Shown here: positions 17,771-64,000 of the stretch, piece by piece | Position numbering within the stretch: position 1 is the stretch's first letter | Layout of the letters: every line of letters starts with the position of its first letter | DNA from: Nitrospinia bacterium | GTDB taxonomy: Bacteria > Nitrospinota > Nitrospinia > Nitrospinales > JAJDAT01 | Assembly: GCA_029261715.1 (NCBI GenBank) | Contig: JAJDAT010000040.1 | Span: 62,001 to 126,000, forward strand | DNA length: 64,000 nucleotides | Reading direction: 5' to 3' | Notes under the pieces: model-generated | Databases searched by the model: none | The model's input: only the letters and a program-made list of their open reading frames with translations | Told to the model about the DNA's origin: nothing | Position numbers and translations under genes: made by a program

Positions 17771-17943
17771 TTTTTTAATAACTAGTATTCTCTAGTAGAA
17801 AACTATTAACTTCTTTTTCTAAAATCATGTTTTTTAATTTTCAGAAAAGAATTTAATAGCTTTTTCTTAGCTTCCCAAAACTACACTATATACAGATAAT
17901 TAGAACTTAAAGCACCCAATATAATGGGTTTATGAATAAAATT

Positions 17944-18047
17944 TTTCCTACTATTTTGCTACTAATATTTTTTTATTAGTAATAAAACTATAGAAAAGTT
18001 ATATTTTGCTACTAATTTTTAAAAATTAGTAGCAAAATAGTAGGAAA
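17944..18047. repeat. 23-bp perfect inverted repeat with nested hairpin upstream of fic
   Basis: Arms 17944-17966 and 18025-18047 are perfect reverse complements over 23 bases. Inside, 18002-18016 (TATTTTGCTACTAAT) pairs perfectly with 18025-18039 over 15 bases with an 8-base loop. The 15-mer therefore occurs three times, twice direct and once inverted, 58 bases before the fic start. This could be a cruciform or a set of operator sites for autoregulation. Confidence 0.8.
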
Positions 18048-18104
18048 GTTTTTCCAAAAAAATCAGCATGAAAATCTTGAAACTAAAAAAATACAGACTC
18101 AAAT

Positions 18105-28187: not shown

Positions 28188-28349
28188 TGTGGAAAAACCC
28201 GGTAAAGGCTCAAAATAAAACGGAAATTTTCATGAATAAATTGTTAGATAAAACTGCGTTTTTTTCAAGCGCGGAAGGATTTAACTTTTATTTGATTATT
28301 ATACCTTATTTTCCACAATGATTCACAATTAATTAACAGGTTATCCACG
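28188..28349. promoter_or_regulatory. oriC: DnaA-box cluster, candidate replication origin
   Basis: In the AT-rich spacer between dnaA and gyrB four sites fit or nearly fit TTWTNCACA: TTTTCCACA on the minus strand at 28188-28196, TTTTCCACA at 28309-28317, TGATTCACA at 28319-28327 (one mismatch), and TTATCCACG at 28341-28349 (one mismatch, overlapping the dnaA stop). Such clusters next to dnaA commonly mark oriC. The 948-base region on the other side of dnaA lacks comparable boxes. Confidence 0.5.
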
Positions 28350-29705
28350 TTCTATCTTATCGATTAAAGTTTGCACGTTTCTTGAGATTTCGTTGTTTTC
28401 TTTCAATAGTTTACCGATTTTAGTATGAGAATACATCACGGTTGTATGATCCTTACCTCCAAACTCTCTTCCGATCTCTGGTAAAGATGACTTGGTACGC
28501 TCTCTGCATAGGAACATTCCAATCTGTCTTGGAACTGAAATATCACGGGAGCGCTTCTTTGACTTTAGATCAGAAACCTTTAAATTAAAATGAGTTGCGA
28601 CCTGTTTTAAGATATTTGGAATTGTAAAGTTCTCTTGATGATCTTGAGAAAATTTCTTGAAGACATTTTTTGCTAAATCCATATTTATGGGTTTTGACGT
28701 AAAAGAGGAATATGCTATTAGTCTGAGTAATATTCCTTCCAACTCCCTAATATTTGAGCGAATGTTGTTCGCTATATAAATTGCAACATCTTCGGTCAAT
28801 TTAACGTTTTGAATCTCTGCTTTTTTTAATAGAATCGCTACTTTAGTTTCTAAATCTGGGGGCTCCATATCCGCTATCAGGCCGCATTCAAAACGAGACC
28901 GCAGTCTCTCTTGAATTTTTCTCATTTCTTTTGGAATAGCGTCGCTTGTAATGATGACTTGTTTGTGCGCTTCGAATAGTGTGTTAAACGTGTAAAAAAA
29001 CTCTTCCTGAGTTCGGTCTTTGCCTTCAATAAATTGAATATCGTCGACTAATAAGACGTCCAGGGGACGATATCGGTCACGAAAAGCATTCATGCCATCC
29101 TTTTTCAAAGACTGGATCAAATCGATGGTAAATCCTTCAGTGGAAACATATCTAATTTTTAGTTTTTTATTTTTTTCGTGAATTGCGTTTCCAATAGCGT
29201 GAAGAAGATGAGTTTTTCCTAAACCTACAGAACCATATATAAATAAAGGGTTATAAGCCATTGCGGGATTAGAGGCTACCGCCTTTGCCGCTGCATGAGC
29301 AAACTGATTACAACCGCCGACTACAAAGTTTTTGAAAGTATATTTTTGATTTAACGAGGGTTTGAAATCTAAATGGTTTTGTTCATCAGTTTCAATATAG
29401 TTATGTTTTTCATACGAAACTTTTGTTCCGTTTCTAGCTGAATAAACTTTAAATTTAACGCGAAGCGGAGTCCCAGAAACGCTCTGTAGAGAGCTTTCTA
29501 TTATGCTTGAATAGTTTTCTTTTAAATATTTTTTGAAAAATTCATTGGGTACGCCAAGAGTAAAAACTTGACCATCGTATGAAACTGGAGAGGTGGGGGT
29601 GAACCAGGTATTGTAATTTTCTGGGAGAACCTGGTTTACGATATCTTCTAAACACTTACTCCAGAGAACTTCCATAGATTTCCATTTTCTCAGGTCTTGC
29701 GACAA
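28341..29705 (-). CDS. dnaA: Chromosomal replication initiator DnaA
   Basis: 454 residues. Domain I at the N-terminus (WSKCLEDIVNQVLPENYNTWF), short linker, then AAA+ domain III with Walker A GSVGLGKTHLLHAIGN near residue 160, Walker B VLLVDDIQFIEGK, and RLRSRFECGLIADMEPPDLETK. Domain IV ends with the DnaA signature GKDHTTVMYSHTKIGKL that binds DnaA boxes. dnaN and recF, which often follow dnaA, are absent; gyrB follows directly. Confidence 0.97.
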   Translation of the reverse strand: MSQDLRKWKSMEVLWSKCLEDIVNQVLPENYNTWFTPTSPVSYDGQVFTLGVPNEFFKKYLKENYSSIIESSLQSVSGTPLRVKFKVYSARNGTKVSYEKHNYIETDEQNHLDFKPSLNQKYTFKNFVVGGCNQFAHAAAKAVASNPAMAYNPLFIYGSVGLGKTHLLHAIGNAIHEKNKKLKIRYVSTEGFTIDLIQSLKKDGMNAFRDRYRPLDVLLVDDIQFIEGKDRTQEEFFYTFNTLFEAHKQVIITSDAIPKEMRKIQERLRSRFECGLIADMEPPDLETKVAILLKKAEIQNVKLTEDVAIYIANNIRSNIRELEGILLRLIAYSSFTSKPINMDLAKNVFKKFSQDHQENFTIPNILKQVATHFNLKVSDLKSKKRSRDISVPRQIGMFLCRERTKSSLPEIGREFGGKDHTTVMYSHTKIGKLLKENNEISRNVQTLIDKIERG

Positions 29706-30346
29706 GGCGAAATATTAACTAATTTGTGAGGAATTGGAGCTATAGTAATGAAGCCCCAATTTAAAATCAATACAAAAATTTTTTTCATAGTAATTTAATA
29801 ACCAATTGAATATTAATGATTAATTTTTATTTCGGATTGATAAAAAAACTTAAAATTGTTGATTTTCAATGACTTAAAATATAGAAATATTTTTAAAATT
29901 TAGGTAAATCTAAGCTAAAAATACTTTTAAAAACTAACCAGGTTTATAAAAATATTTTTAGTTATTAGTACTCATTTATTTTGATAATAAGTTTCATTTC
30001 TACTATTGATTTAAATTAGAGCTAAATAAAAATGCATAAAATTTAATCGCAGTTTTCCGCTCTCAAAATAATTTAAAGCTAATTCAAAGCTTTTGGATTA
30101 ATCCCTTCGATTTTAATTTTTTCTCCCTGATATGTTCCAAACAGCAGCATCTTAAACATCCTCGCTAATAGTTCCGCATTTTTATTGCCTATTTTTTAAT
30201 CAACTACCTATCTTAAAAACCTCTTAATAATATTTGTTTTCAATATGTTACCCCTTTACTACCCTCGAATTTTCACAATAGGTAAGGGCGGTCTAAGTTG
30301 CTTATAGATTTTTTAATTAAGGGAAGGACCCATTTTCACGAAAAAT
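29706..30346. other. Long AT-rich intergenic region upstream of dnaA
   Basis: No protein gene is supported. Long A/T runs occur between 29760 and 30050 and must hold the dnaA promoter. From about 30230 the composition changes towards C-rich, leading into the candidate small RNA; its promoter and 5' end could not be fixed. No clear DnaA-box cluster is seen here. Confidence 0.45.
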
Positions 30347-30455
30347 CAGAGGTTCACCTCCTTTCCTCTGACCATTTATCCCAACCGAATGTAGACCCCC
30401 TCCCCTGCATACGGTTGAGTAGTGGAAAAGGGTTCTTCTCTTTCCTTTTATTTTT
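30347..30455 (+). ncRNA. Candidate small RNA with anti-Shine-Dalgarno loops and terminator
   Basis: Three hairpins in a row. Hairpin 1 (30347-30370): CAGAGG/CCTCTG with a loop containing TCACCTCC; the 12-mer at 30354-30365 (TCACCTCCTTTC) equals the conserved 3' end of bacterial 16S rRNA, the anti-SD. Hairpin 2 (30383-30416): 12-bp stem AACCGAATGTAG/CTGCATACGGTT with one mismatch and loop ACCCCCTCCC. Hairpin 3 (30424-30455): GGAAAAGG/CTCTTTCC followed by TTTTATTTTT, a Rho-independent terminator. CCUCC-bearing loops resemble the anti-SD loops of the alpha-r14 'cuckoo' RNAs of Rhizobiales. The 5' end may lie further left. Transcription is not shown. Confidence 0.5.
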
Positions 30456-30520
30456 AAAAAATAAGTAATTTGATTTTTGCGGGATGAATTAATTGGGAAG
30501 TATTTTCTCGATACTTTTAA

Positions 30521-30620
30521 AGGGAATCTCTAAAAACTATTCTTGGCTACGAGTGGGACCTATGAAATAGGAGCTTGTCAGTTGCCGTAAGTAAAAATAT
30601 TGAATTATTAGAGATACCCT
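30521..30620 (+). repeat. Copy A of a dispersed ~100-bp hairpin element
   Basis: Starts AGGGAATCTCTAAAAA and ends with the near-complement TTATTAGAGATACCCT (14 of 16 pair). The middle reads TTGGCTACGAG, hairpin CCTAT-GAA-ATAGG, then CAGTTGCCGTAAGTAAAAA. Five other good copies occur in the window. This one ends 33 bases before the 75-aa gene. No transposase is inside. Confidence 0.85.
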
Positions 30621-30653
30621 AAAATTTATAAAATATTAGAAAGGGCTTTTTGT

Positions 30654-30881
30654 ATGTCAGTTAATCTAATCAGTCGACCAGATGTAGCTTTGAAAAATAA
30701 ATCTATCAAGGAAAAACAAACTGTAATTTCGGAGTATTTATCGAAACATCCAACTCCGATAGATGCAGTGAATAATGTAAAAAACAAAATAGACTCGGCT
30801 CAAGATTTGTCGCAAGTTAAGTCAAAGTTAAATGAGGCGTTTGCCGAAATTATAAAAGTAATATATGCCCTAGGAAAATAG
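30654..30881 (+). CDS. 75-aa protein paired with tail-fibre modules, unknown function
   Basis: Small, mostly helical, charged protein with GAAAGGG upstream as ribosome site. A clear paralogue is encoded at 60782-61009; shared positions include the start VNxIxRPDVxxKNKxxKEK, the central Dxxxxxxxx(I/K)xSAxDL and the end EIIxxxYxxxK. Each copy is preceded, in the same orientation, by a member of the ~100-bp repeat family and lies next to a tail-fibre-like gene. This suggests a small accessory protein of a phage-derived module. No signal peptide or membrane segment is present. It is followed after 1 base by the 118-aa gene. Confidence 0.75.
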   Translation: MSVNLISRPDVALKNKSIKEKQTVISEYLSKHPTPIDAVNNVKNKIDSAQDLSQVKSKLNEAFAEIIKVIYALGK

Positions 30882-30882
30882 A

Positions 30883-31239
30883 ATGTCGGATATAGAAATA
30901 AACTCTACTCGAATCGATCGTTTATCGGCTCGATTAGATAAATCAAATGAAAACGTTAACAACCTAACTCACGCCGTAACTGAAAATACTGCAGAAATGA
31001 AAGAGCTGTGTAGACGGATAGATGGTATGCATAGCACTCTTTACGGAAACGATGGTATGAGCGGTCTAGTTGATATGGGAAGGTTTTCTAAAGAAAAAGC
31101 TGAAGAACACGAAACCTTATTAAGAGGGAAAAATAAGAACAATGGGTTAGTCCACGAAGTGCAAATGTTCAAAAGAGTAGCAACATACCTTGGAGGCGGA
31201 GGTCTTATTGGCGCTTTTTTGGAGTTTTTTAAAAAGTAA
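30883..31239 (+). CDS. Coiled-coil protein with C-terminal membrane helix, phage lysis-type (XhlA-like)
   Basis: 118 residues. Residues 1-50 form a coiled coil (INSTRIDRLSARLDKSNENVNNL...), then an acidic middle with HETLLRGKNKNNGLVHEVQMFKR, and a short glycine-rich membrane segment near the end (VATYLGGGGLIGAFLEFFKK). The layout of a coiled coil plus C-terminal membrane helix after an RGxxxxxGLVHxV stretch is frequent in small phage and prophage proteins of the lysis or tail region. Exact role unknown. It starts 1 base after the 75-aa gene. Confidence 0.55.
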   Translation: MSDIEINSTRIDRLSARLDKSNENVNNLTHAVTENTAEMKELCRRIDGMHSTLYGNDGMSGLVDMGRFSKEKAEEHETLLRGKNKNNGLVHEVQMFKRVATYLGGGGLIGAFLEFFKK

Positions 31240-31297
31240 ATTAAAAATGTATTTCTGAAAGCGTGAATAAATCCTATGAGAACCCTAAGTATATTTT

Positions 31298-31396
31298 AGG
31301 AGACCTCTAAAAATTGATCTTGGCTACGAGCTGCCCTTGCAAGCAAAAGGGGAGCGAGTTACCGCAAACTAAAATTTCGAATTATTAGAGACTCTG
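31298..31396 (+). repeat. Copy B of the dispersed ~100-bp hairpin element
   Basis: AGGAGACCTCTAAAAA at the left, TTATTAGAGACTCT at the right, with TTGGCTACGAG, internal stem CCCTT/AAGGG and CGAGTTACCGCAAACTAAAA. The stem bases differ from copy A yet still pair. It lies 58 bases after the 118-aa gene. Confidence 0.8.
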
Positions 31397-31574
31397 TTTA
31401 ATTATTTGTATCTTCAAGGTCTTTAAAGATTCTATTGAGTCAAAATAAATAGTTGTAGTCGCCTGGAGTTTATCGAAATACCGCTTAAAAATTTATTGTG
31501 TAATTTTCGATAGCTTCAGAGCGACGCTTTAAATGGTCCTCTACCAGTCAAGGAGGTCTTTGTTTACCAAACTT

Positions 31575-31607
31575 AACTTTCTAAATATTTATCTAGAAAG
31601 TTTTTTT
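31575..31607 (+). terminator. Rho-independent terminator directly before the 325-aa gene
   Basis: AACTTTCTA / TAGAAAGTT 9-bp perfect stem, 10-base loop, followed by a T-run. Only 14 bases separate it from the start codon at 31622, so no ordinary promoter fits between. A five-codon frame ATG GAG ATA AAG TTA TGA (31608-31625) overlaps the start. Expression downstream may depend on antitermination. Confidence 0.7.
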
Positions 31608-31621
31608 ATGGAGATAAAGTT

Positions 31622-32599
31622 ATGACCGCTGTATGCGATTTTATTTGGAAATTGGAAACGATGTCCGATATTGATAAAAAAATAAATAATGATACTGATC
31701 GTTTTGAAATTTCATCGAATCTGCTTACAGATAGTGAAAAATTTAAATCCGTCAAAAATTATGATTTGGGAATAAATTTTACACAACAAGAGTATTCAGA
31801 CATAAATCAGTTTACTTCTGAAGCGGTTATAAGTGGAGATACAGCGGTTCTCTCTAGAGGAAAATGGCCTGATAATTGCGCCAATGGACGAATCACTTTT
31901 GACGTTGGAAAAAAGTTTTTTTATATTGTTTCCCGCGAATCGGAGAAAAAAATTATTTTAGATGGGTTTCCACCGAGTGGAATGTTTAGCTACATTATCC
32001 GGTTAACGGAATTTGATTTAGGCGAGGTTAAGCTTTGCGCGAAAAGAAACGCCGATCTGAGATTTGAAAATTGGTCGATAAATCAAGATGAGAATTATAA
32101 AAATGTAATCAATGAATACGTATCGGTTAGCGACACTGAAGCCATCCCGACGACAATTTGGCCGAAGATAGTTTCCTCCTCAATTGTTGAAACAATAAAC
32201 TCGCAAAATATTTATTATTGGTTAATTTTTTATCCTTCCTCAAAAAAGTTTAATGAAGATATTGAAGTAAAAATTTTTAATAAGGATAAGAATTTCTGGA
32301 GAAAAATAGCTAAAGTTCGAGCTGGTTTTTGGGAATATAACAATTCTGCGGAAGCAACCTCGGAGACTTGGGTTTTAGCCTCGACAAACGATCTTCTTCA
32401 CGCTGTTTCCGAAGCGATATCTTCAAAAAATGTAAATCGAATGACGAGAGAAGATGTAACCTCAATAACCGAATTTGAATGGGGATTAATTAATGGTTGG
32501 TCCGGTCCAGAAGATATAGCCAGGGGGCTCACACTACACTCTACAGACCCTGAAGAGAATCCGTCAGTATCTCAATTTTGCTTAAATTTTGAAAAATAA
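31622..32599 (+). CDS. Short tail-fibre-like protein, paralogue of the protein at 61262-64000
   Basis: 325 residues; GGAG ribosome site 9 bases before the ATG. Residues about 50-120 (QQEYSDINQFTSEAVISGD...GKWPDNCANGRITFD) match the N-terminal visible part of the large fibre protein (QQEWTNSNQVTSQATVAGA...WPDNCENARISFD). Residues about 130-150 (YIIRLTEFDLGEVKLCA) and the C-terminal 110 (FWRKIAKVRAGFWEYNNSAEATSETWV...LLHAVSEAISSKNVNRMT...) also match it. The discoidin-like and LamG parts of the large protein are missing here. Probably a phage-derived adhesin or fibre subunit. Confidence 0.65.
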   Translation: MTAVCDFIWKLETMSDIDKKINNDTDRFEISSNLLTDSEKFKSVKNYDLGINFTQQEYSDINQFTSEAVISGDTAVLSRGKWPDNCANGRITFDVGKKFFYIVSRESEKKIILDGFPPSGMFSYIIRLTEFDLGEVKLCAKRNADLRFENWSINQDENYKNVINEYVSVSDTEAIPTTIWPKIVSSSIVETINSQNIYYWLIFYPSSKKFNEDIEVKIFNKDKNFWRKIAKVRAGFWEYNNSAEATSETWVLASTNDLLHAVSEAISSKNVNRMTREDVTSITEFEWGLINGWSGPEDIARGLTLHSTDPEENPSVSQFCLNFEK

Positions 32600-32659: not shown

Positions 32660-33052
32660 CTAACTATTTTCTTGGACAATTTTTTGAATGGTGGGAATCA
32701 CTTCTTTTATGCTAAGAGGTTTGCTGATAAAACCGTTCATCCCTGCGTCAAAACATTTTTGTTGATCGCTTTTATCTTCGTTTGCGGTCATGGCTATAAT
32801 TGGAGTTAGTTTTTTTGAACCTTCTTTTTCCAAACGCCGAATTTCCCTAGTTGCTTCTAAACCGTCCATTTCAGGCATCTGCATATCCATTAAAATCGCG
32901 TCGAATTGTTCTTTCTGAAATTCATCAACAGCTAATTTGCCATTTTCCACTGCAATGACGCTATGGCCTTTGCGAGTAAGCAGTTTTGAGGCAAGGGTAA
33001 GATTTAATGGCGTGTCGTCGACTAACAATAGTTTTAGATTTTCTTGTTCCAT
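32660..33052 (-). CDS. Stand-alone response-regulator receiver domain
   Basis: 130 residues, a complete CheY-like receiver without an output domain. Acidic pocket VDD near residue 11, phospho-acceptor aspartate in [13 protein letters not shown] (about residue 55), threonine in IIAMTAN, and lysine in FISKPLS. The sequence style is that of receivers detached from hybrid histidine kinases. No kinase is in the window, so its partner is unknown. It lies between phage-like genes but need not belong to them. Confidence 0.88.
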
Positions 33053-33214
33053 GGCGGTAATTTAGTAAAGTAAAATTAAGCGATTTTTTGTTGATAAATA
33101 AAACCTGAACGATGTCCTAATGTTAACACGGGTTTAAAGGAAGTTGCTTGAAAAAAGCAAACCGTCCAAACTAAGAAATCGCGTCTTGAAAACCGGCCAT
33201 AAATCAAAGATAAA

Positions 33215-34111
33215 TTAGAACGATTTCCAAGCTCCAATAATTCTACCTACTACAGGATCGGGATATTCTTTTAAATTTACAATTTGTATTTGTGCAGAAG
33301 GATTGAGGGGACGCAGAACTAAAAAGCTTTTTCCTAGTTCTACATATTTTGCCGTTAGACCGTTCTCATGAAAGATGGCATACATTTGGTTTTTTTCTAT
33401 AGTTTTATCGCTCCGATCAATGATCACAATATCGCCTGAATGTAGAGTGGGTTCCATGGAATCTCCTTCTACGCGACTAGCCACTAGGTTATTACGCCGT
33501 CCCGTGGCTCGAGTATGCAACAAAACATAATCTTCGATATTCTCGTGTTGAATAATGGGTTGTCCGGCCGCAATGGAAGAGTCGGTTAACGGAACTGAAA
33601 TATAATCTTCTTGATTAATCGCAGGGCCGCTTTTATCCGGATAGCTATTGTAGATTTTTAGTTGAGGCGGTGCATGTCCCAATTCTATTTTTTCGTCGCT
33701 CAATAATCTTTGAATCGGTATTTTCAAAATATCGCTAATTTTATTCAACAACTCTGTTGAGAACGACCATATCCCCTTTTCGTAAAACTCCAAAGAAAGC
33801 TCGGGAACCTCAATTTCTTGGGCGAGTTTTTGGACTGAAAATCCTTTTTGCTCTCTTGCGTTTTTAATTTTATTAGCAATTTTTTTATCATATTGAGAGG
33901 TTGATTTTTTACCGGTTAGCAACCAGTCAAAATCCGCATAGAAATACGTAGAAATAGTCAGCAATATTTCTGAAGAAGGCACTGTTCTTCGTTGCTTCCA
34001 TTTTTTAAGCGTATCGTAATTTAGATTTGTGACTTGTGAAAAAGAACGCAAAGAATTCCCTTCTAGCAACTGAGAGAACCTATCGTAAATTTCCCCACCG
34101 TTAATTTTCAT
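33215..34111 (-). CDS. LexA/CI-type repressor with two HTH domains and S24 peptidase domain
   Basis: 298 residues from ATG 34111 (GAG 8 bases upstream; a GTG at 34120 is the alternative). An N-terminal CI-like HTH (SLRSFSQVTNLNYDTLKKWKQRR, then DFDWLLTGKK) is followed by a second, XRE-type HTH (IKNAREQKGFSVQKLAQEIEVP). The S24 part has cleavage site AAG-QPI, catalytic serine in GDSMEPTLHSGD and lysine in LTAKYVELG, so RecA-stimulated self-cleavage is expected. It faces two palindromic operators in its upstream region. Phage-type repressor that would be released by DNA damage. Confidence 0.85.
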   Translation of the reverse strand: MKINGGEIYDRFSQLLEGNSLRSFSQVTNLNYDTLKKWKQRRTVPSSEILLTISTYFYADFDWLLTGKKSTSQYDKKIANKIKNAREQKGFSVQKLAQEIEVPELSLEFYEKGIWSFSTELLNKISDILKIPIQRLLSDEKIELGHAPPQLKIYNSYPDKSGPAINQEDYISVPLTDSSIAAGQPIIQHENIEDYVLLHTRATGRRNNLVASRVEGDSMEPTLHSGDIVIIDRSDKTIEKNQMYAIFHENGLTAKYVELGKSFLVLRPLNPSAQIQIVNLKEYPDPVVGRIIGAWKSF

Positions 34112-34131
34112 AGAAACCACTCAAAAAATTC

Positions 34132-34186
34132 TTGACAAAAGGGGACAATTGTCCCATATTTATAGATATACAGGGACATATGTACC
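34132..34186 (+). promoter_or_regulatory. Repressor operators O1/O2 over a plus-strand promoter
   Basis: GGGACAATTGTCCC (34142-34155) is a perfect 14-bp palindrome; GGGACATATGTACC (34173-34186) is the same half-sites with one mismatch. Their centres are 31 bp apart, three helical turns. TTGACA at 34132-34137 with a 17-base spacer leads to CATATT at 34155-34160, so O1 lies between -35 and -10. The natural reading is that the divergent S24 repressor shuts this promoter for the genes at 34501 and 34971 and regulates itself. Confidence 0.72.
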
Positions 34187-34431
34187 TATTTGTAGCCAAA
34201 AAGTTTTGTCACCAAAAAATATTTTGGCTATTTATTAGTTACCAAACTTATTGTTTTATTGGGTTTTTAGCGGCCAAATACAAGTTTTCGTGAATTGGCG
34301 CGTTTACCTATAAGAATTATACCATCGATTGTTTTATTACAAAGGGTCTTTATGAAAATATTGGAAATTTTTGGGTCAAGAGTAGGGATGTTTTTAGAAA
34401 AACTGTCGTTTTCCAATTTGATTTAGGTTTT
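34187..34431. other. Leader region with a 9-bp inverted repeat
   Basis: TAGCCAAAA (34193-34201) pairs with TTTTGGCTA (34222-34230) around a 20-base loop. The rest is the AT-rich leader of the plus-strand genes. Nothing else supported. Confidence 0.5.
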
Positions 34432-34500
34432 TTGGGGAGGGTGGAAAAGTATTCTACCTGTTTATTGGAAAGAAACATTGAAGCGAGTGGAATACGACAG

Positions 34501-34974
34501 ATGAAAAAATTGAAAATAAAAAGAGACAACTCAGTAATAAGCCGTATGCAAATTTGTGGATTGCCAAAAGGGAATAAGCAAAAAAGTAAAAAATTTAAGG
34601 GGTGTGGGGCGCGAGGGATGGTTCCTTCAGTAGCAGGCTGGAAATGCCTCTATTGTGGGTTTTTTCGTTATTTTCCTCATGTGGATGATGAACGACTATG
34701 GTCGCACTTTAAGTGGGCTCGTGAATACTGGAGGGCTTATTATTTTAATGGAAATTATTATATAAATGGCTGCCCTGTATCTTATGGCATAGACCCTATA
34801 CCGCCCTATTTATACGATGATTTGATGGAAGTAGAAACGCCTATTTGGTTCCGTGCGTTCGCCAATCTAGATGAAGACGACTTTGATCAGTATTTGAGTT
34901 TATACACACGCAGTAGTTATTTTGTAGACCTGAATGAAGAAAATAATGAGGAAAATGGGGAGGAGCGCTTGTGA
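34501..34974 (+). CDS. Zinc-ribbon protein under repressor control, unknown
   Basis: 157 residues from ATG 34501; the frame is open further, with TTG at 34432 and GTG at 34441 as alternative starts, and no start is decisive. CGLPKGNKQ...CGARGM and WKCLYCGFF supply four cysteines in two pairs, a probable zinc ribbon, within the first 60 residues. The remainder is aromatic and acidic (HFKWAREYWRAYYFNGNYYING) and ends in a poly-acidic tail. No family is recognised. It overlaps the sigma-like gene by 4 bases and lies downstream of the operator region, so it is likely part of the phage early/late switch. Confidence 0.55.
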   Translation: MKKLKIKRDNSVISRMQICGLPKGNKQKSKKFKGCGARGMVPSVAGWKCLYCGFFRYFPHVDDERLWSHFKWAREYWRAYYFNGNYYINGCPVSYGIDPIPPYLYDDLMEVETPIWFRAFANLDEDDFDQYLSLYTRSSYFVDLNEENNEENGEERL

Positions 34975-43660: not shown

Positions 43661-43712
43661 AAAAAAAAACGGATCCCCTACTTCCTTTTTTGGAAGAGGA
43701 ATCCGTTTTATA
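43661..43712 (-). terminator. Terminator downstream of tRNA-Asn
   Basis: On the minus strand AAAACGGAT...ATCCGTTTT closes a long stem with an inner CTTCC/GGAAG pairing and is followed by a run of nine T. It directly follows the tRNA CCA end. Confidence 0.8.
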
Positions 43713-61044: not shown

Positions 61045-61140
61045 GAAATTACTATGGGAGCTTCTGAGTTTGCCATCGCCCAGCCCTTAAAGCTAAGGAC
61101 CAGGTTCCAGGCAACTTCGAGTTTTCAAAGTTTTAGAGTA
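61045..61140 (-). repeat. Degenerate, copy D-like member of the hairpin element family
   Basis: On the minus strand, directly after copy F, CTCTAAAACTTTG leads to GCCTGGAACCTGG, hairpin CCTTA-GCTT-TAAGG, then GGGCGATGGCAAACTC. It shares GAACCT and GGCGAT-G-AAAC with copy D. The right terminus is not recognisable. Confidence 0.45.
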
Positions 61141-61234
61141 TCTCTAATAATTCAATGTTTTTACTTACGACAACTCGCAAGCCCTTACTTCATAAGGCTC
61201 ACTCGTAGCCAAAAACAGTTTTTAGAGATTCCCT
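61135..61234 (-). repeat. Copy F of the dispersed ~100-bp hairpin element
   Basis: On the minus strand it starts AGGGAATCTCTAAAAA and ends TTATTAGAGATACTCT, with TTTTTGGCTACGAG, stem CCTTA/TAAGG and CGAGTTGTCGTAAGTAAAAA. It is the closest relative of copy A and has the same position relative to a 75-aa gene (upstream, same orientation). Confidence 0.88.
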
Positions 61235-61261
61235 TTATTTAACTGATAGAATTAAATATTG

Positions 61262-64000
61262 CTATTGGGATTTAGCTTGTAATCCCCACGAATGCAGGAA
61301 TTGATCTTTGCCTTGGTTTGTTTGATATCGACAACGTAAGTCTTGACCAGAAGCTTGGCCGCTCACGTCAACGGTTCCGCGATAAATTCGAATATCGCCG
61401 GCAAGAGGCAACCCTTGTTGAGCCATTGGCACTGCCGCCCATTCGGTTCCGCCGTTGCGAGTGACGTAGAATGTACCGGGGCCATCTGAATCGGAGTGTT
61501 CAATCCGAGACCACACGTAACCTTCAGAAGGCACAAAACGAGGATCATAGGTTTTACTTCGCAAATCCATAGCTCCTCGTTCAGAATCATAATTCAAACG
61601 ATATTGAGAAACCGAAGGATTTTGAGTAGAGGAGCTAGAATAAAGAGTCACGCCTCGAACAATAGAACTTACCGAGTTAGACCATCCACCCGATTCTTCC
61701 CATTCAGCATCTGTCATTGAGGTGAGGTTACCTCCAGTCATTCTATTAGAAGATTGAGAACTAATCGCTTGTGATACTGCGTGGAGCATATCGTCAACCG
61801 TTGAAGGTACCCAGTTTTCAGCGGCTGTATCGGTCGCATCGTTATTATATTTCCAAGCGCCATCATTTTTAGCTATCGCTCGCCAAATAGAAGGAGTTGC
61901 GTCGTGATGCTTATAACTTGTCGCTATTTGACCGCCGCCATTTGAAAACGTGACATCATTTCCCGTAGGCGCCGATCCTGTTCTATAGACCATTGTCGCA
62001 GGATCATTTTGGTAATATTTAAGAGTGCCTGCTGTTCCATTATGATAACCGATACGAATTGTTCCAGATGCTGGTGTAATATAAGGAGTCGAAAGAGTAA
62101 ACCATTCAAGTTCTCCTCCTCCCGTATGAGTAAAACCTGCTTCTGAATATAAAACGTCATATTGAGTGATACTATCTTCATTAAATATCATTATTGTTAA
62201 ATCAACTGGAGAGACACACTCTACTTTAATACCTATTTGAGTAACGGTTTGATTGTTGCCAACTGAATAAAATAAATCTACTAATGTTCTATTATCAGCA
62301 TCATTTGCATCTGGAACATATGACGACGAATTCCCTGCAACTTCATTATCTGTATTTTTCAAAATATTAATTTCTGTACCAGGACCAAAGTTAGAAGAAG
62401 GATCAAGAACCAACCAGTAATAAGCGTTTTGCGAACCTAGAATTTCGGTAACGGAGCCGCTATTAATATCGGACCATGCAGAGGTATCGGTTTTTTTAGA
62501 TTCCGTATCACAAATAGAAATATATTCTGAAGATGCGAAAGAGCCGCCTGAATATGCAAAAGTAGGCGGTGTAAAATTAGAAGTCCATATGGCCGAATGA
62601 CTAAGCCTAAATTCGTCTAAATATGCATTCTTTAAAGTTCTCACAGCATAGGCGCCTCTCCCTAAGTAGAAAACACTACCCGGTGTTGTCGGTGTGTAAA
62701 AATCAGCGGTCCAGGTATTAACAGTTGAATTCACAACACCATTTATACATAAAGCGATTTTTGTTGAGTCGCCTCCCCAACCCTTTATGAGAGCCATGTG
62801 ATACCACTGCCCCGTACTTAAAGCGCTGATTGTAAAAAATTTATTAGAATATCCGGGACTTCCTCCAGCATTGTCGTAACACTCTAAACCAAATGAAGTG
62901 GGGCTATCAAATTGAAGTGAATAATATGATGATGAGTTAACCCCCATACCACATATTGCGTTTGCACCTGAGATTGCAGAAGATAAATATATCCAAAAAT
63001 CAATTGTGAAAAGATCGCTGGTAGTGTTTGGCATTAACCTGAAATCGCTATTATTTGCAAAAGTGATATGATTTTCATTATTTCCTGTAGGCCATTGCAT
63101 TGAACCCGCTCCAAATTTTTTAACGGAGGTATTTATAACAGGAGGGTTCGAGCCCAGAGCAGTACCCGTTCCCTTATTTACGGCTGTACTGCTGTCAGAA
63201 AAATCAGAATCTCCATGAACAACAATCACAGTGTCAGAATCAATTCCGTTAGAGGCAACTCCAACGTTAAACTTTACTTCGCCAGAATCAAGCTCACTCA
63301 TTCGCATGACATAGTCAAATGTTCCATCAGTTGGAATATGGAACATTTCCATTTCATTAATGATTAAGAAGCCCCCGCCTGTCATAGCCGTAATGTTTAT
63401 TTTGTAATATTTGTAAGCGATGTTATTGGCGAATGTCTCTGGAGTAGGAGTATTCTGGGTATAAGATTTTGTGTCGATAGTCAATAAGGTTGTGTAGCTA
63501 ATGTCGTCGTTACTGCCTTCGAACGTGTAGGAATAACTCGCAGTGGTATACCAATTCAAATTAATTTTATTCACGACGGTTTCGGAATTAAATTCGACTT
63601 TGAGCCATTGAGGAGCATCGTTTCCGTTTGTTGGGTTCCAATAAGTTGAGGGATTATCATCGAAAGCTTCTGCAGCGGTTTGCCCATTTGGAAGTTCATT
63701 AGAAGCTGAATAAATTTGATTTTTTGTTAAATCGGTTTGAAAAAGATCTAGCTGAGTATCGGAATTTCTATTTTCAATATCAAACCAAGATGTGCCGCTA
63801 TCGAAGCTAATGCGAGCGTTTTCGCAATTATCCGGCCAAACGCCTGAAGAAACGGTAACCGCTGCTCCGGCGACCGTCGCTTGGGAGGTTACTTGATTCG
63901 AATTGGTCCACTCTTGTTGAAGATAATCAGATTCGGTGTCGAAGTTTTTATCAGAATTTAGATTAAGGCCAGGATCGGTTCCTTTATAAAGACTGGCGCT
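61262..64000 (-). CDS. Large tail-fibre/adhesin protein with discoidin-like and LamG domains (5' end outside window)
   Basis: At least 912 residues; the frame is open to the window edge, beyond the GTG at 63574. In order: N-terminal part with WPDNCENARISFD shared with the 325-aa protein; F5/8 C (discoidin)-like domain (ASNELPNGQTAAEAFDDNPSTYW...WLKVEFNSETVVNKINLNWY); YVMRMSELDSGEVKF; LamG/concanavalin-like domain (GDSDFSDSSTAV ... FTIDFWIYLSS ... WYHMALIKG); a YYWLVLDPSS segment; and a C-terminus with DGPGTFYVTRNGGTEWAAVP like phage tail proteins. The two lectin-type folds suggest binding to a surface glycan. Confidence 0.72.
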   Translation of the reverse strand, partial: SASLYKGTDPGLNLNSDKNFDTESDYLQQEWTNSNQVTSQATVAGAAVTVSSGVWPDNCENARISFDSGTSWFDIENRNSDTQLDLFQTDLTKNQIYSASNELPNGQTAAEAFDDNPSTYWNPTNGNDAPQWLKVEFNSETVVNKINLNWYTTASYSYTFEGSNDDISYTTLLTIDTKSYTQNTPTPETFANNIAYKYYKINITAMTGGGFLIINEMEMFHIPTDGTFDYVMRMSELDSGEVKFNVGVASNGIDSDTVIVVHGDSDFSDSSTAVNKGTGTALGSNPPVINTSVKKFGAGSMQWPTGNNENHITFANNSDFRLMPNTTSDLFTIDFWIYLSSAISGANAICGMGVNSSSYYSLQFDSPTSFGLECYDNAGGSPGYSNKFFTISALSTGQWYHMALIKGWGGDSTKIALCINGVVNSTVNTWTADFYTPTTPGSVFYLGRGAYAVRTLKNAYLDEFRLSHSAIWTSNFTPPTFAYSGGSFASSEYISICDTESKKTDTSAWSDINSGSVTEILGSQNAYYWLVLDPSSNFGPGTEINILKNTDNEVAGNSSSYVPDANDADNRTLVDLFYSVGNNQTVTQIGIKVECVSPVDLTIMIFNEDSITQYDVLYSEAGFTHTGGGELEWFTLSTPYITPASGTIRIGYHNGTAGTLKYYQNDPATMVYRTGSAPTGNDVTFSNGGGQIATSYKHHDATPSIWRAIAKNDGAWKYNNDATDTAAENWVPSTVDDMLHAVSQAISSQSSNRMTGGNLTSMTDAEWEESGGWSNSVSSIVRGVTLYSSSSTQNPSVSQYRLNYDSERGAMDLRSKTYDPRFVPSEGYVWSRIEHSDSDGPGTFYVTRNGGTEWAAVPMAQQGLPLAGDIRIYRGTVDVSGQASGQDLRCRYQTNQGKDQFLHSWGLQAKSQ

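Follow-up and report, generated by a model that had tools for sequence, protein, structure and literature searches.

A candidate RNA element of approximately 130 bases, tail included, was found on the plus strand (folded part 30320–30441) next to dnaA in the window analysed here, a stretch of 64,000 nucleotides at positions 62001–126000 of contig C40 in the 5.33-Mb genome, of 52 contigs, of an uncultured Nitrospinota bacterium. The element was predicted to display two different C-rich loops, both single-stranded and both complementary to Shine-Dalgarno (SD) sequences, on a clamped junction. We give about even chances to the model in which it is a stand-alone plus-strand small RNA (sRNA) of approximately 120–140 nt that would repress translation by covering SD sequences. 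By analogy with alpha-r14/NfeR1, LhrC and the csRNAs, this is the simplest and best-supported reading. The sequence, the strand-specific fold, the exposure of the loops and the excess of loop-1 pairing at start regions were computed for the element itself. Its features are listed in Table 1.

Table 1. Positions and predicted features of the candidate element (numbering of the window).
Feature	Position	Strand	Details and basis
TATAGAT, weak −10-like candidate	30303–30309	+	By sequence; 11–17 bases 5′ of the basal stem; missed by the consensus scan
Outer basal stem, 5′ arm AGGGAAGGACCC	30320–30331	+	Fold; partner 30430–30441; two G-U pairs, others Watson-Crick
Inner basal stem, 5′ arm TTTTCAC	30333–30339	+	Fold; partner GTGGAAA, 30422–30428
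Hairpin 1	30346–30371	+	Stem TCAGAGG/CCTCTGA, 7 Watson-Crick pairs; loop TTCACCTCCTTT (UUCACCUCCUUU)
Hairpin 2	30382–30417	+	12 pairs, one A.A mismatch, one U-G pair; loop ACCCCCTCCC (ACCCCCUCCC)
Basal stem, 3′ arms (GTGGAAA, A, GGGTTCTTCTCT)	30422–30441	+	Fold
U-rich tail TTCCTTTTATTTTT, probable intrinsic termination site	30442–30455	+	Sequence

Folding of 30320–30470 yielded a predicted three-way junction that bears hairpins 1 and 2 and is closed by a basal stem of 12 bp and 7 bp (19 pairs). The outer part of the basal stem joins AGGGAAGGACCC to GGGTTCTTCTCT and the inner part TTTTCAC to GTGGAAA, so that both hairpins are carried on it. This stem was missed in the first-pass annotation, whose extent of 30347–30455 had to be replaced, although the letters of both hairpins were confirmed as it had described them. 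It had also reported a terminator. The U-rich tail of that terminator is present, with UUCCUUUUAUUUUU directly after the folded part and UUCUUCUCUUUCC carried within the tail/terminator, but with both hairpins on a shared basal stem the modelled fold may lack a third hairpin of its own. With an assumed start at 30335 or later, the prediction changed to a weak local terminator hairpin in place of the basal stem. The U tract was not listed by a consensus terminator scan, the loop and stem being outside the rules of that scan. The element was single-copy in the genome, and the basal-arm motif (both arms) had no other genomic site with fewer than three mismatches.

The plus-strand fold reached −50 kcal/mol (z = −6.1), and none of 200 shuffled sequences was as stable; the minus strand gave z = −1.0, and 30341–30452 alone gave z = −4.0. 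In a stability regression over 13,580 windows on both strands of the 136-kb contig, the regression window at 30321 deviated by −5.55 sd on the plus strand and by −1.36 on the minus strand. This made the element the third most over-stable separate region of the contig, ranked below a long A+T palindrome (17921–18050) and a tRNA-Asn/terminator region (at 43661). That palindrome (17880–18080 in all) is nested, near-perfect and A+T-rich (TTAGTAGCAAAATA... units), and is the most over-stable fold of the contig. Four of the 38 pairs of the element are G-U on the plus strand, and the same pairs become A.C mismatches on the minus strand. These four one-way wobble pairs would be expected if the plus-strand RNA is the one kept. 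In the predicted ensemble, loops 1 and 2 were approximately 90–100% unpaired for assumed starts at 30315, 30320, 30335 and 30341, and loop 1 was approximately 100% unpaired for all four of these 5′ ends.

Loop 1 agrees letter for letter with the consensus bacterial 16S rRNA 3′ end. The earlier statement that it is identical to the 16S end holds only for the general bacterial consensus, and the sole 16S rRNA match in the genome was a truncated fragment at a contig edge (G000:C23:2-782). The motif TCACCTCCTTT occurred at four sites in 5.33 Mb, one of them the element, and only there inside a clear hairpin. Reversed-pattern controls gave one and two sites per strand, so the count itself shows no excess. 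Among the other sites, L117 reads as an SD ahead of an ATG, and neither L118 nor L120 forms a clear hairpin loop. At L118 (G000:C30, ~162311), a ferredoxin/oxidoreductase-like gene has an ATG with a second SD, approximately 60 bases 3′ of AAAGGAGGTGATCC; this strong upstream SD has no obvious ORF of its own. Viral contigs contained no exact match to hairpin 1.

For a sequence of local composition, the chance of a 7-bp Watson-Crick stem around the 9-base motif core was approximately 0.0017, or 0.017 with G-U pairs allowed. Background rates of hairpins were obtained from 396 kb of genome stretches (both strands) and three Markov controls. Single CCTCC-loop hairpins were not enriched in the genome (18 versus 12–17 in the Markov controls). 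An adjacent pair of such hairpins was found once in the 396 kb, at the element, and not at all in the three controls; from the 18 single hairpins, approximately 0.02–0.03 pair arrangements would be expected per 792 kb of strand. The pair had been seen before this test was made, and these figures are therefore a guide and not a p-value.

In the proposed mechanism, an sRNA gene on the plus strand would start near 30315–30320 and end in the U tract near 30455, and the basal stem would clamp the 5′ and 3′ ends and hold the two hairpins with their loops single-stranded. Strong SD sequences such as AAGGAGGUGA would be partners of loop 1 (UUCACCUCCUUU), with its 16S-tail letters, and GGAGGG-rich leaders would suit loop 2 (ACCCCCUCCC); the two loops may be partly redundant. 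Pairing at ribosome-binding sites would compete with 30S subunits and lower the translation of a set of mRNAs. We infer the transcription of the element, the ends of the transcript, its action in trans, the repression and all targets. The computed energies were −16.0 kcal/mol for loop 1 with AAGGAGGUGA and −12.6 kcal/mol for loop 2 with GGAGGGAG.

Pairing at start regions, which the first-pass annotation had named as a check, was compared in 241 sampled genes. Loop 1 reached −10 kcal/mol or better at 12% of start regions and at 2.9% of internal sites, an excess that is biased upwards because the start codons were chosen partly by SD strength and that is expected for any anti-SD sequence. The excess for loop 2 was small (12% versus 8.7% at the same energy). 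The anti-SD design claimed for this stretch was supported as regards its strong, strand-specific fold and its two exposed loops. No sigma-70-type consensus promoter was found on the plus strand at the element with the consensus scan. The −10-like TATAGAT box has no recognisable −35, and an upstream sigma-54-type spacing, judged by eye, was off by one base.

On one side of the element is dnaA (minus strand, start at ~29705), and on the other are small plus-strand ORFs from 30654. The cumulative GC skew of the 136-kb contig has its minimum at 30411, which places the element at or near the replication origin. An A+T-rich stretch (29750–30250, approximately 22% GC) lies beside the skew minimum and dnaA, and the stretch around 30411 is the probable origin region. 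Exact DnaA boxes (TTWTNCACA) were absent between 28318 and 31776, and two TTTTCCACA boxes were found between dnaA and gyrB (28188 and 28309). If the element is real, its position at the skew minimum by dnaA raises, as a matter of speculation, the question of dosage control. It is improbable, in our estimation, that the clamped junction, with its 16S-tail copy and its other C-rich loop on display, represents a new Nitrospinota RNA class, a general translation dimmer ('16S-tail mimic') whose dose would follow replication through its place at the origin.

Growth-linked control had been suggested from the position next to dnaA, and this was not supported. The closest DnaA proteins in named genomes were all from Nitrospina/Nitrospinota, with 54–61% identity, and in at least one relative unrelated small ORFs occupied the place between dnaA and the next syntenic gene. 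Because the relatives are this distant and the syntenic place holds unrelated ORFs, the adjacency is no evidence of a dnaA-linked function. Upstream of dnaA, the window (32660–34971) and another Nitrospina genome (L037, 1856–3894) have genes for a response regulator, an S24-type repressor and an uncharacterised protein in one shared order, and the small ORFs between this block and dnaA differ. A dispersed element of approximately 95–105 bp (TTAAGGGAACCTCTAAAAAC ... TTATTAGAGATACCCTTAA) was also present in the window, at 30515–30622 (+), 31292–31400 (+) and 61133–61237 (−). It had approximately 38 clear matches in the genome, on many contigs and 71–93% alike, with imperfect terminal repeats and a variable inner hairpin. 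This dispersed element looks like a MITE, and the copies that were scanned with Rfam gave no match.

The main rival to the SD-covering sRNA is a structured plus-strand RNA with another role. It might bind a protein, act as a decoy or sponge, or be processed from a longer transcript, such as a leader or attenuator of the ORFs from 30654, and its C-rich loops would then serve another purpose. We consider it possible, if doubtful. The evidence for structure is strong and independent of the loop motif, the base pairing in trans is a predicted step, and the next plus-strand ORF does start at 30654; however, two independent exposed anti-SD-like loops, one with 16S-tail letters, would be improbable by accident, and a leader or attenuator would be separated from the next ORF by approximately 200 bases, the U tract and a copy of the dispersed repeat (at ~30521–30614). 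An inverted repeat acting at the DNA level, either a relic of a small transposable element or a replication-origin structure with no functional RNA, would account for the basal arms (20-bp inverted repeats, 16/20 alike), the nearby skew minimum and the MITE-like element approximately 75 bases downstream. It is unlikely, as the element occurs in one copy and shares no terminal repeats with others in the genome, its arm motif is unique at ≤2 mismatches, no target-site duplication is visible, no exact TTWTNCACA box occurs from 28318 to 31776, and all four wobble pairs run one way, being G-U on the plus strand.

The minus strand could instead encode a CsrA sponge like RsmY, RsmZ and CsrB, co-directional with dnaA. 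Read on that strand, both loops would show GGA (AAAGGAGGUGAA and GGGGAGGGGGU), CsrA is encoded in the genome, and the stem of hairpin 1 is perfect on both strands. Against this, the minus strand folds no better than expected (z −1.0; −1.36 in the contig regression) with four pairs turned into A.C mismatches, and it has no U tract after the element, the lone consensus terminator match being a 5-bp fragment within hairpin 1; a stable transcript with several GGA-loop hairpins, as in CsrB/RsmZ, is not predicted there, and we consider the sponge quite unlikely. A stable inverted repeat that has C-rich loops by mere accident would fit with the lack of homologues in 79–99 genomes of other families and with loops that were picked after reading, with no correction for all the motifs that a reader could notice, but the z of −6.1, the rank among the top three of the contig and the expectation of only ~0.02–0.03 pair arrangements per 792 kb of strand make chance very improbable. 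Hardly credible is a small protein gene, the 56-codon TTG-initiated ORF that runs through the element (30298–30468, +): its frame is open, but its SD is weak at best, it has no relative in 79 other genomes and no Pfam match, and the fold is far stronger than that of coding windows on the same contig.

The genomes used for comparison belong to the same order or class as the host, and every one is from another family; with no member of the host's family among them, every conservation test was a long-distance test. Many sRNAs are untraceable at the distance between families. A DNA search of 99 other genomes found no homologue, and the non-self matches were short, attributable to chance and, where inspected, in coding or unrelated DNA. 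A covariance model built from the single sequence was run on 80 genomes and on the dnaA loci of relatives; it recovered the element and its reverse strand and no homologue in the 79 other genomes, with the next matches at 12–20 bits and those aligned lacking the loops. The best CCTCC-loop hairpin near dnaA in the relatives (L037) lies inside a response-regulator gene and was dismissed as chance. Because all compared genomes are from families other than the host's, the absence of homologues is weak evidence, neither for nor against the element.

The parallel drawn by the first-pass annotation to alpha-r14 (RF02344) was borne out insofar as, when 2 kb were scanned against all 4227 Rfam families, this one matched best. 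The match (22.2 bits, E 0.17) was far under the gathering threshold of 58.8 bits and absent from the output of the whole-genome ar14 search, and both the loops and the host differ, so membership was rejected. Alpha-r14 RNAs have three hairpins with identical CCUCCUCCC motifs (PMC10746234), and their Rfam title names an alphaproteobacterial host; the element has two hairpins with two different loops, and its host belongs to the Nitrospinota. The element may nevertheless work like alpha-r14 without being shown to be a member. A search for alpha-r14 in the relatives gave nothing above the cut-off; one match (35.9 bits, G008) was another kind of element, in a 3′ UTR. It is shared by five genomes belonging to a single Nitrospinota genus (G008, G011, G014, G017 and G023; L134/L193 to L197): after the stop codon of a DegQ/HtrA-like gene come a conserved CU-rich stretch (for example AACCTCCTCTCCCAC) and a terminator hairpin, and most copies of the hairpin have a CU-rich loop (GAACCTCCTCCC in G008). 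This is possibly a 3′UTR-derived anti-SD RNA.

With alpha-r14, or 'cuckoo', RNAs the candidate element shares the design of a small intergenic RNA with CCUCC-type anti-SD loops on unrelated stem sequences and a U-rich terminator, and alpha-r14 members themselves have variable stems and ultraconserved loops. It differs in its closed three-way junction, its single copy and its Nitrospinota host, and the basal clamp is unusual for RNAs of the alpha-r14 type. CcsR1-4 of Rhodobacter sphaeroides are sRNAs with C-rich hairpin loops that are counted among the cuckoo RNAs. Processing of a DUF1127 gene transcript releases them as four tandem copies (PMC10253847), whereas the element is single, and just upstream of it there was no plausible ORF as a protein-coding partner, only frames of 20–56 codons. 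NfeR1 of Sinorhizobium meliloti is a tested repressor sRNA with three redundant anti-SD motifs (PMC10746234). LhrC is likewise a tested repressor with three redundant CU-rich sites (PMC4132741). LhrC1-5 of Listeria monocytogenes and other sRNAs with UCCC motifs (RsaE, RNAIII and FsrA) pair redundant CU-rich loop sites with the SD region and block translation, as proposed here (PMC4132741). LhrC differs in its motif (UCCC versus the full 16S tail), its Gram-positive hosts and its five copies, and it is not known to have a basal clamp. The csRNAs of Streptococcus pneumoniae are also short RNAs complementary to SD sites (PMC4387999), but their complement to SD and AUG is found in the single-stranded part that separates two hairpins and not in loops, and they are controlled by CiaRH. 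A literature search on small RNAs in Nitrospinota found no study. If real, the element would be an anti-SD loop sRNA of another architecture, in a host very distant from the Rhizobiales and Gram-positives on which work on the class has been done, and would support the idea of a repeated origin of anti-SD loops.
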